Source: Gammaproteobacteria bacterium (GTDB taxonomy: Bacteria > Pseudomonadota > Gammaproteobacteria > Pseudomonadales > Litorivicinaceae). From it: a stretch of DNA of 37,490 bases. A program made the position numbers and the translations under genes. Where the stretch lies: NCBI GenBank assembly GCA_024640985.1, contig JAHEDY010000024.1, positions 1-37,490 of the forward strand, written 5' to 3'. Under the pieces are notes generated by a model, which worked only from the letters and a program-made list of their open reading frames with translations, was not told where the DNA came from and did not search any database. Below are positions 1,577 to 5,949 of this stretch, piece after piece (position 1 is the stretch's first letter; each line of letters starts with the position of its first letter).

Positions 1577-1615
1577 TGCACTCAATTTGTGCAAAATATG
1601 CACAAGAATGGCGCA
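1577..1615 (+). promoter_or_regulatory. Tandem NtrC-type enhancer sites upstream of aapJ
   Basis: Site 1 at 1577-1593 reads TGCAC-N7-GTGCA, a full match to the NtrC (GlnG) dyad core. Site 2 at 1599-1615 reads TGCAC-N7-GCGCA, one mismatch. The two centres are 22 bases apart, about two helical turns, as expected for cooperative binding of NtrC dimers. They lie about 130 and 108 bases upstream of the start point predicted from the sigma-54 element, the geometry known from the glnA enhancer. Binding is inferred, not shown. Confidence 0.75.
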
Positions 1616-1688
1616 TTGGTGCTTGTGAAAGGGAGGCCTGAGTGCTAGCTTTTCCAAGCATGGCGGCGGGCACACCCGAATCTTGGCA

Positions 1689-1704
1689 TGGCACAACTGT
1701 TGCT
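1689..1704 (+). promoter_or_regulatory. Sigma-54 promoter of aapJQMP
   Basis: TGGCAC-N5-TTGCT with exactly ten bases between the -24 GG (1690-1691) and the -12 GC (1702-1703), a near-perfect RpoN element. The expected transcription start is about 1714-1715, giving a leader of roughly 70 bases to the aapJ ATG. Together with the NtrC-type sites upstream this predicts induction under nitrogen limitation. Confidence 0.85.
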
Positions 1705-2869: not shown

Positions 2870-4051
2870 GTGACAGAACGTACGCGTATTCCTCTGCATC
2901 GAGACCCTAAATTCCGAGCGCTGGTGATTCAGATCCTGGCTCTGGCTTTTGTGGTTTACGGTTTTTATTCGCTATTTCAAACCACTGTCGACAACTTGGT
3001 TGCCCGTGGTATCCAAACAGGGACGAGTTTTTTTGACGAGGTGGCGCCGTTCCAAATTGGATTCAGTCCATTTTTTGATTACAAACTTGGCGAATCAACT
3101 TATATCGATGTGTTCTTTGTCGGTATCCAGAACACCATTTTAGTTGCTGTATTGGGCATCGTTGCTGCCACCCTTCTCGGATTTTTTATCGGTGTTGTCC
3201 GCTTGTCACCGAACTGGTTGATCTCAAGAGGTGCTCTCGCCTACATCGAAATTTTCCGTAACGTTCCATTGCTATTGCAAATCATGTTTTGGAACTTTGC
3301 GATTTTCCTGCCGTCACTTCCAGCGCCAAAAAATTCCATCGAAATGGGCGCGTTTTATTTAAATGCGCGCGGCTTCCACACGCCACTGCCTGTGATCGAG
3401 GATTCAACGGGTTTTGCCTTGTGGATGGCCATGCTGGCTGTTCTTTGCGTTGGTCTGATTGTGTTTGCCAGACGGGCCAAAGTTCGCTTTCAGGAAACAG
3501 GACAGCAGTTACCAGTCGTTTGGATCTCTCTGGGTGCCATCATTGGTGGTGGTTATCTCCTGTATCTCATCGCCGGTTCGCCATTGATCTTTGATGAGCC
3601 AGTCTTGGGTCGATTTAACTTTAAAGGGGGTGGGCAGCTTCCATTACCCTTATTCTCTTTATGGTTTGCACTGACGCTCTATACGGCAGCATTTATTGCT
3701 GAAAACGTGCGTGCTGGCATTCAATCGGTGTCGCACGGTCAGACTGAGGCATCGCATGCACTTGGTTTGTCTCGCAAAGACACTGTGCGCTTGGTGACTA
3801 TTCCGCAAGCACTTCGGGTCATCATCCCGCCAACCATCAGCCAATATCTGAATTTGACAAAGAACTCTTCATTGGCAGTTGCCGTGGGTTACGAGGAATT
3901 GGTTGCTGTATGGGCGGGAATTACGCTCAACCAGACGGGGCAGGCCCTGGTGATTATCGGAATGACTGTGGCTGTCTATGAATGTTTGAGTTTATTCACC
4001 TCTTTTGTACTGAACTGGTACAACAAGCGTATTCAGTTGACGGAGCGATAA
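2870..4051 (+). CDS. aapQ: General L-amino acid ABC transporter permease AapQ
   Basis: A 393-residue inner-membrane permease of the HisMQ type. The N-terminal hydrophobic segment lies at about residues 20-40. The long periplasmic insertion and extra helices relative to HisM/GlnP (about 220 residues) are typical of AapQ/BztB. The EAA loop that contacts the ATPase is visible near residue 300 as SHGQTEASHALGLSRKDTVR, followed by IPQALRVIIPPTISQYLN. It pairs with AapM to form the channel. Start is GTG 2870; no better ATG is available in frame. The gap after aapJ holds a hairpin, and the stop is one base before the aapM ATG. Confidence 0.93.
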   Translation: MTERTRIPLHRDPKFRALVIQILALAFVVYGFYSLFQTTVDNLVARGIQTGTSFFDEVAPFQIGFSPFFDYKLGESTYIDVFFVGIQNTILVAVLGIVAATLLGFFIGVVRLSPNWLISRGALAYIEIFRNVPLLLQIMFWNFAIFLPSLPAPKNSIEMGAFYLNARGFHTPLPVIEDSTGFALWMAMLAVLCVGLIVFARRAKVRFQETGQQLPVVWISLGAIIGGGYLLYLIAGSPLIFDEPVLGRFNFKGGGQLPLPLFSLWFALTLYTAAFIAENVRAGIQSVSHGQTEASHALGLSRKDTVRLVTIPQALRVIIPPTISQYLNLTKNSSLAVAVGYEELVAVWAGITLNQTGQALVIIGMTVAVYECLSLFTSFVLNWYNKRIQLTER

Positions 4052-4052
4052 G

Positions 4053-5174
4053 ATGGCTGATGTAAAAACCTTCGTTCCTGCACCTGATCGAGCCCCTCCC
4101 AGCAGTGCCGTCGGCCCCATTGCTTGGGTGCGAGACAACCTGTTTGGTTCGATTGGAAGCTCCATCGCCACCTTGGTGTTTTTCTATTTATTTTTCAGTT
4201 ACGTCCCACCCTTTGTCGAATGGGCGTTGATTAACGCAAATTGGACGGGCTCTGATCGATCGGTGTGTGAAGCCAATGCGGCGGGAGCATGCTGGACGTT
4301 CATCAATGTGCGTCTTGAGCAGATCTTGTTTGGTCTCTATTTCGCGTCAAATCCAGACGAATTATGGCGGCCAACGCTGATTTTCATCTTGTTTTTCGCG
4401 TTGCTATTGCCGCTACTGTTTGAGAAAACGCCGGGGAAGAAGTGGTTAACGATCGCATTGTTGGGTGTATTCCCTGTGGTCTTTTACTTCGTCGTTTACG
4501 GTGGATATTTCGGAATTTCACAATCCAACACCACGCAATGGGGCGGGTTTCTTTTAACGTTCGCGCTCGCCTTCGTCGGCATCTTGTTGGCGTTGCCAAT
4601 CGGGATCTTGTTAGCGCTGGGTCGACGGTCTGAGTTACCTGTGATTCGATCGATGTGTGTGATCTACATCGAATTTTGGCGCGGAACACCGCTCATCACA
4701 ATTTTATTCATGGCCTCGGTCATGTTGCCTCTGTTTTTCCCAGCCGGTGTTGAGTTCGATAAAGTCGTGCGGGCGATGATCGGAATTACGCTGTTCCAGT
4801 CGGCGTACACAGCCGAAGCGGTGCGTGGAGGATTGGCTGCGATTCCGAAGGGTCAATCTGAAGCGGCGATGGCACTCGGTTTGGGGTACTGGCGGCGTAC
4901 GGTATTTATCACCCTGCCGCAGGCATTGAAGATTTCGATTCCTTCCATTGTGAATACCTTTATTGCGCTGTTTAAAGACACGTCGCTGGTTTCGATCATT
5001 GGCTTATTGGATCTTTTGAATATGGCGCAGACCACAGCGCGCTCGATGGAGTGGAAGGGTTACGACATCGAAGCCTTTTTGTTTGCTGGATTTGTTTACT
5101 GGGCGTTTTGTTATGGCATGTCGCGATACAGCCAAAACCTTGAGCGCAAACTCGATACCAATCGGAGAAATTAA
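4053..5174 (+). CDS. aapM: General L-amino acid ABC transporter permease AapM
   Basis: A 373-residue inner-membrane permease, partner of AapQ. Hydrophobic segments begin near residue 30 ([16 protein letters not shown]); the C-terminal half has the HisMQ core with EAA loop [19 protein letters not shown] near residue 275 and the adjoining [20 protein letters not shown] segment. The N-terminal half contains the periplasmic extension with [11 protein letters not shown] that is characteristic of AapM/BztC. It begins one base after aapQ and ends one base before aapP, so the three are translated from one message. The role in broad amino-acid import is inferred from family and gene order. Confidence 0.93.
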
Positions 5175-5175
5175 G

Positions 5176-5949
5176 ATGACCACCGATACACAGATGGCAC
5201 CGGCCGAACTCGGTGAAAGCATTATCACCATTGATGGCCTGAACAAATGGTACGGGCAATTTCATGTTCTGAAAGATATCGATTTGGATGTGAAGCGTGG
5301 CGAACGGATCGTCATTTGCGGACCATCAGGGTCTGGTAAGTCGACACTGATTCGCTGCATCAACCGCTTGGAAACTCACCAAGAAGGGTCAATCGTGGTG
5401 GATGGAATTGAACTAACTGACGATACCAAACACATCAACGATATTCGTCGTGAAGTTGGAATGGTGTTTCAGCACTTCAACTTATTCCCACATTTGACGG
5501 TGTTGGAAAACTGCACACTGGCTCCAATTTGGGTGCGGAAAACGCCCAAGCGGGAAGCCGAAGAGATTGCGATGCAATATCTTGAGCGAGTGAAAATCCC
5601 CGAGCAAGCCAATAAGTATCCGGGGCAGTTGTCTGGTGGTCAGCAACAGCGTGTTGCGATCGCTCGGTCACTCTGCATGAACCCTCGCGTGATGCTGTTT
5701 GATGAGCCAACATCTGCGCTCGACCCCGAGATGATTGCAGAAGTGTTGGATGTCATGGTTGGTCTTGCTGAAGATGGCATGACGATGCTTTGTGTGACTC
5801 ACGAAATGGGTTTTGCTCGTAAAGTTGCTAACCGCGTGATCTTTATGGATGGCGGTCAGATTGTTGAGCAAAATGAGCCTGAAGAGTTCTTCAACAACCC
5901 TCAAAATGACAGGACTCAATTGTTCCTTTCACAAATCTTGCAACACTGA
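5176..5949 (+). CDS. aapP: General L-amino acid ABC transporter ATP-binding protein AapP
   Basis: A 257-residue ABC ATPase that powers AapQM from the cytoplasmic face. Walker [10 protein letters not shown] at 49-57, Q-loop QHFNLFPH around 99-106, signature LSGGQQQ at 152-158, Walker B VMLFDE at 172-177, D-loop SALD at 180-183 and the switch histidine H209 are all intact, so it should be active. I used ATG 5176 rather than the upstream in-frame ATG at 5083, because the latter would place 31 unrelated residues encoded within aapM, and GGAGAAATTAAG supplies a ribosome site for 5176. Last gene of the aap unit; a hairpin follows. Confidence 0.95.

Follow-up and report, generated by a model that had tools for sequence, protein, structure and literature searches.

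The 37,490-nucleotide stretch of DNA analysed here, referred to as the window, includes an operon for an aapJQMP-type amino-acid importer that we propose is under two layers of control, one consisting of NtrC and a sigma-54 promoter and the other of a conserved leader driven by a promoter-like element named p1. We assign this reading a probability of about 0.6. The window belongs to a 1.63-Mb genome, assembled in 44 contigs, of a Litoricola/OM252-type gammaproteobacterium; OM252 bacteria, of which HIMB30 and LSUCC0096 are cultured strains, are marine oligotrophs of cosmopolitan distribution. The nearest aapJ relatives of the window are those of Litoricola sp. NorthSea_HE361-13_B09 (locus L001, 99%) and HIMB30 (L002, 98%), and that of LSUCC0096 (L009, 92%) is somewhat more distant. 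Excerpts of PMC8269220 describe HIMB30 and LSUCC0096 as OM252 strains and attribute a PII nitrogen-response system to OM252 bacteria.

The first gene of the operon, aapJ (1786-2808, + strand), encodes an AapJ-type periplasmic amino-acid-binding protein that includes an SBP_bac_3 domain and whose best NCBIfam match, TIGR01096, is under the cut-off. It is followed on the same strand by aapQMP-type genes (2870-5949) encoding two permeases (2870-4051 and 4053-5174, BPD_transp_1 in both cases) and an ATPase (5173-5949, ABC_tran). The label aapJQMP-type is a naming by this analysis, the NCBIfam matches being under the equivalog cut-offs. The gap between aapJ and aapQ includes a terminator-like hairpin (2822-2844) of 10 pairs followed by TCTTT, which probably lowers expression of the permeases relative to the binding protein. 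The ORF located upstream of the importer (677-1576) encodes an EamA-type permease. A search of plasmid records with nucleotides 1570-1800 produced no match.

Motif scans identified two NtrC-type dyads upstream of aapJ, neither with an assigned strand. The distal one, TGCAC-N7-GTGCA with 0 mismatches, encompasses nucleotides 1577-1593 (centre 1585) and begins directly after the stop codon of ORF 677-1576; the proximal one, with 1 mismatch, encompasses nucleotides 1599-1615 (centre 1607), 22 bp from the first. They are followed on the + strand by the sigma-54 -24/-12 box TGGCACAACTGTTGCT (1689-1704), which has 0 mismatches to TGGCACNNNNNTTGCW. The consensus of this kind of box is TGGCAC-N5-TTGCW with GG-N10-GC. 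When C1703 is taken as -12, the predicted sigma-54 start is at about nucleotide 1715 and the dyads are at about -130 and -108. Thus the earlier note, made from the letters of the sequence, located the dyads, the box and their distances to the predicted start correctly. The NtrC consensus is given in the consulted part of PMC8743547 as the 17-bp palindrome TGCACCAnnnTGGTGCA, and the predicted dyad positions fall within the range of about 80-150 bp upstream that excerpts of PMC4987338 give for NtrC enhancers. Taken singly, loose versions of these motifs are no more frequent in the window than chance predicts: with up to 2 mismatches, 16 dyads were observed and 22.1 expected, and 23 boxes were observed and 23.9 expected, the box at 1689-1704 being the only one among the 23 matches listed with 0 mismatches to TGGCACNNNNNTTGCW. 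The evidence therefore rests on the combination of the motifs.

This combination is rare. Dyads with at most one mismatch were found 39 times in the genome of the window versus 18 times for a reversed-pattern control, and among the matches listed only two close pairs of dyads exist, located at glnA and at aapJ. A composite pattern consisting of a dyad, 50 to 80 nucleotides and a box, which was designed with the glnA and aapJ sites both in view, matched the genome of the window at these two loci only (control, 0). Across 25 genomes of the family it matched 31 places, of which 22 are at glnA, four at aapJ (genomes G000, G002, G008 and G010) and five elsewhere (G003:C29:25154, G008:C1:73083, G015:C18:10153, G023:C201:16623 and G024:C182:4309). 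As the control gave a similar number (3), the latter five are perhaps due to chance. Two other perfect dyads were seen in the genome of the window. One (G000:C32:28748-28764, positions 1501-1517 of L060) is located between a carboxyltransferase-like ORF on the minus strand and a small ORF and has neither a close second dyad nor a composite match. The other (G000:C1:26230-26246, L058) is within a ribosomal-protein gene cluster, in an rpsC-like ORF, and probably arose by chance.

The regulators that such a promoter would need are encoded in the genome. The earlier note had proposed a search for ntrC and rpoN, and both were found above the cut-off, a curated one in the case of ntrC (713.6 versus 558.6 bits for ntrC, 478.5 versus 277.35 bits for rpoN). 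The ORF that precedes ntrC and overlaps its start encodes a kinase, which we take to be NtrB-like, and just upstream on the same contig is glnA, presumably encoding GlnA. In the family, ntrC is above the cut-off in 21 of the 25 genomes and rpoN in 19, several of the assemblies being incomplete. The 410 contigs of G010, the genome of L003, which has both aapJ dyads, yielded no glnA and no ntrC match above the cut-off; rpoN was not found in G019 (L011), although the box is present there. The upstream regions of glnA served as the reference. Out of 22 loci, one of which was cut or unusable, all 21 readable regions include a GG-N10-GC box; one or more dyads within 1 mismatch are present in 20 and two in 15, and wherever two dyads are recognisable they are 31-32 bp apart. 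In many genomes the region between the proximal dyad and the box at glnA (e.g. L122) includes an extra conserved string, TGCACCACAATAG, which is possibly a second promoter or a half-site. The presence of ntrC and rpoN, the conserved glnA reference and the occurrence of the composite only at glnA and aapJ make NtrC/sigma-54 control the best reading of this region, and such control of the importer is likely in the sub-lineage of the window. The idea of NtrC/sigma-54 control put forward in the earlier note is therefore supported. The claim that the site reproduces the known glnA layout is not, as the 22-bp spacing at aapJ differs from the 31-32 bp found at glnA in this family, and neither is the epithet "textbook"; conservation, described below, is patchy.

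At aapJ the dyads are kept in part of the relatives. Both are within 1 mismatch in four of 14 genomes (the window, L001, L003 and L009), one is in three (L002, L006 and L045), and seven have none (L004, L005, L007, L008, L010, L011 and L019), so that the conservation in close relatives on which the earlier note had made its case depend was found only in part. The distal position is kept within 1 mismatch in the window, L001, L002, L003, L006 and L009, and the proximal one in the window, L001, L003 and L009, with 2 mismatches in L002. Variants also exist: the one in L011 has N6, and pairs of dyads 32 bp apart are present in L019 and L045, with 2+3 and 1+2 mismatches, respectively. The GG-N10-GC box is more widespread, being intact in 11 of the 14 genomes (missing in L007, L008 and L010) and free of mismatches to TGGCACNNNNNTTGCW in five. 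Several genomes that have no aapJ dyads still carry ntrC and rpoN. On the AapJ tree the dyad label changes four times, a number as low as which was reached in 108 of 500 shuffles, and clustering is therefore not clear. Nitrogen control at aapJ looks real in these sequences, but it appears far less constant than at glnA.

The facing half-sites of the two dyads form an inner palindrome, TTGTGCA-N5-TGCACAA (1587-1605, no strand assigned, read from the sequence), which might be taken as the operator of another regulator, for example of the LysR type, acting on p1, the likeness to NtrC sites being secondary. The palindrome is exact in the window, L001, L002, L003 and L009 and has 1 mismatch in L006, while L002 and L006 have a degenerate fourth half-site, as such an operator would allow. 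However, any two NtrC dyads with a spacing of 22 bp generate this palindrome by themselves, glnA has half-sites of the same type, and the outer TGCAC of the distal dyad is kept in five of these six genomes. We consider an operator of this kind very improbable and retain NtrC as the candidate protein for the dyads.

The earlier note overlooked a second set of features, namely p1 and a conserved leader that encloses the sigma-54 box. The p1 element (1622-1651, + strand), with CTTGT-N16-TGCTA at 1622-1647, can be read as a -35 sequence TTGTGA (1623-1628) and an extended -10 sequence TGC-TAGCTT (1643-1651), with a weak match to the consensus and a predicted start at about nucleotide 1658. A sigma-70 consensus scan of nucleotides 1560-1800 found no promoter, p1 included, so that p1 as a promoter rests on conservation: CTTGT-N16-TGCTA is present in all 14 genomes, and its spacer varies in sequence. 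The leader (1658-1785, + strand; matched by the covariance model R1 at 1655-1778) has a mean identity of 78% in nine genomes. Its 5' block, GGCG-GCGGGC-A-CACC (1662-1676, + strand), includes the 5' strands of three putative helices, P1 (1662-1665), P2 (1666-1671) and P3 (1673-1676), and its 3' block (1717-1767, + strand) the corresponding 3' strands of P3 (1717-1720), P2 (1740-1745) and P1 (1764-1767). In the same nine genomes identity is 95% over nucleotides 1661-1675 and 87% over 1716-1785. It is lower over 1676-1715 (59%) and over the stretch with the dyads (62%), and lower also at the third codon positions of aapJ (57%) and at 156 fourfold sites (49%). The leader is thus conserved beyond the neutral level. 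A coding leader peptide was considered and ruled out: the reading frames are interrupted or shift among the relatives and none is kept, the 36-codon frame that starts at ATG 1660 in the window being common only to the near-twin L001.

These data bear on the simplest alternative, a plain NtrC/sigma-54 promoter with a single relevant start at about 1715, the conserved blocks upstream of it being DNA-level binding sites with no RNA role. Everything said above about the dyads, the box, ntrC, rpoN and the glnA reference agrees with it as well, as does the outcome of the sigma-70 scan, and the RNA covariation described below is modest when the divergent locus L010 is left aside. The 5' block nevertheless precedes the predicted sigma-54 start, and a sigma-54 promoter by itself does not explain it; this most conserved segment of the region is also kept in the genomes of L007 and L008, from which not only the dyads but also the box has been lost. 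Furthermore, p1 is present in all genomes, including that of L010, where dyads and box are both absent, and the conserved blocks are nested complements of each other. A plain promoter is for these reasons unlikely, and we favour the two-layer reading, in which the leader is transcribed from p1.

Three pairs of complementary blocks, GGCG/CGCU, GCGGGY/GCCCGU and CACC/GGUG, are nested within the leader, and the halves of the sigma-54 box form a putative apical stem, P4 (1689-1693 with 1701-1705). The near-identical L001 was excluded from alignments A3 and A4 and L010 was excluded from A3 and added in A4; the leader of genome G012 (L116) was left out because stops inside its aapJ copies show the assembly to be indel-ridden. 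In 12 leaders 91.3% of the cells were paired versus 88.6% after shuffling (1 of 500 shuffles) and the covariation score was 0.181 versus 0.145 (3 of 500), while the number of pairs changed on both sides, four, was ordinary (115 of 500). Addition of L010, which was fitted to the model and whose P4 loop was picked by hand, raised this number to 10, one each being in P2 and P3, a value reached in none of 500 shuffles. The RNAalifold energy had a z of -4.4 against column shuffles (0 of 300 as low), compared to -2.3 for an upstream control stretch (2 of 200), and the RNAalifold consensus had a different local 5' hairpin in place of P2 and P3. When six leaders were folded singly, the model fold was at minimum energy in L003, L004 and L007 and in the centroid for L005, and was absent for the window and L010; for the window leader the minimum-energy fold, at -28.4 kcal/mol, differs from the model fold, at -13.9 kcal/mol (14.5 above the minimum). 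A structured leader RNA is therefore plausible, the covariation leaning on one divergent genome, that of L010.

The double nature of the box raises the question of whether it is a promoter at all. It could instead be the apical hairpin of the leader that resembles the sigma-54 consensus by coincidence, in which case the dyads, bound by NtrC or another protein, would serve p1 from about -73 and -51. The sigma-54 consensus is inherently hairpin-forming (GGCA and TGCT around seven bases), a property that accommodates this possibility and at the same time deprives the inner stem of value as independent evidence. An RNA role is favoured by L007, which lost GG and GC but kept all five inner pairs through changes on both sides, and L008 kept them through wobbles; the box also persists in L004 and L005, which have no convincing dyads. 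Outer P4 gave a weak signal when L010 was excluded (28 of 48 cells paired versus 24.1 expected, 266 of 5,000 shuffles); shifting the register by -2 raised the count to 31. A more perfect hairpin in genomes that have no dyads was only a trend (Mann-Whitney p 0.09; when L019 was taken as dyad-less, 0.30) and was left out of account. On the other hand, conservation forms an island exactly on the -24/-12 halves (A3 columns 40-43 and 50-55), separated by a spacer whose length is constant and whose sequence is weakly conserved, a pattern that favours a sigma-54 box; the consensus is perfect where the dyads are good (the window, L001, L003 and L009), and the genome of the window has just one composite besides that at aapJ. 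We consider a chance resemblance quite improbable. The box may be both a promoter and an RNA hairpin. In the divergent leader of L010 (2881-2985, genome G013), where a p1-like element is kept, the position of the box is occupied by a hairpin of its own with a 7-base loop.

Among confident matches the leader is found only upstream of aapJ in the OM252/Litoricola genus. R1 detected it in 14 of the 25 family genomes, 13 times directly upstream of aapJ and once, in G012, upstream of broken aapJ copies; a further weak match was found in G019:C13 (E 0.18). L010 is a distant fourteenth aapJ leader found by direct search only (E 0.0036), and apart from it a search of 38 loci (37 from aapJ relatives or outgroups plus L010) gave only the chance-level match L034 (E 0.27). 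Three wider draws of genomes were even and made with strict filters, such that rare relatives may escape them: a draw of 390 genomes from the order gave 12 strong covariance-model matches, all in the same genus, and four more at E 0.02-0.06; 369 genomes from the class gave nothing convincing beyond the genome of the window (three others at E 0.004-0.05), and neither did 398 from the phylum (one other at E 0.01). The window and the leader had no match in Rfam release 15 at E up to 5 and neither did the leaders of 11 loci of relatives at E up to 1, and a known RNA family for the leader was set aside on these grounds. One sub-threshold match to SorX, in L107, lies outside the leader.

In the mechanism that we propose, nitrogen limitation would lead to binding of phosphorylated NtrC to the dyads in the sub-lineage of the window, and the bound protein would activate sigma-54 polymerase at nucleotides 1689-1704 for transcription from about 1715. 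The older promoter p1 would produce a longer transcript from about 1658 with the conserved, probably structured leader. This leader would act in cis to tune aapJ expression, translation being the most likely level since the Shine-Dalgarno sequence (GGAG, 1775-1778, + strand, read from the sequence) follows 8 bases after the end of the last putative helix. Because the sigma-54 box is located inside the leader, the nitrogen-driven transcript would have none of the 5' strands of P1-P3 and may thereby escape leader control. Should the nested leader prove real, a handful of bases would function both as a sigma-54 promoter in DNA and as an RNA stem, and the start site used would determine whether a leader switch is part of the message. 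The conserved blocks would suit a switch if they had two mutually exclusive pairings, which is a guess. It is a tentative possibility that the aapJ leader of OM252/Litoricola is an undescribed cis-regulatory RNA, perhaps a riboswitch for an amino acid or a nitrogen metabolite, and that the nested sigma-54 promoter of the sub-lineage, the halves of which are the apical stem, generates a truncated transcript that bypasses the switch. Of the two layers, the nested conserved leader holds the greater interest and is the less certain; NtrC/sigma-54 control provides in itself a testable tie of nitrogen status to organic-nitrogen uptake in OM252 through a broad amino-acid importer.

One open-access literature collection yielded no report of a Litoricola riboswitch or of riboswitch bypass via an internal promoter, and nothing but unrelated-looking Vibrio work on an aapJ-linked riboswitch. 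The aapJ leader resembles the amino-acid riboswitches and leader RNAs of Rfam in having conserved complementary blocks before an amino-acid transport operon, and differs from those described in having no Rfam match and in that its confident matches are confined to a genus. With respect to the importer, excerpts of PMC3596328 place aapJQMP of Sinorhizobium meliloti in a cluster raised under nitrogen limitation, and those of PMC4987338 include the importers gltIJKL, glnHPQ and argT among the Salmonella NtrC targets. These are amino-acid ABC importers tied to nitrogen limitation or NtrC, as the operon studied here probably is; the excerpts of both papers do not describe for them the nesting of a sigma-54 box within a conserved leader that is seen at aapJ in the window. 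The upstream region of aapJ shares with glnALG-type promoters, such as that of glnA in this family, the arrangement of two dyads and a GG-N10-GC box about 100 bp downstream. Unlike at glnA, the aapJ dyads are closely spaced and conserved in part of the genus only, and a strongly conserved leader occupies the interval from the enhancer to the box. The proposed order of the two promoters at aapJ, with p1 as the upstream one, is that of glnAp1 and glnAp2 of E. coli, where a sigma-70 promoter is located upstream of a sigma-54 promoter.
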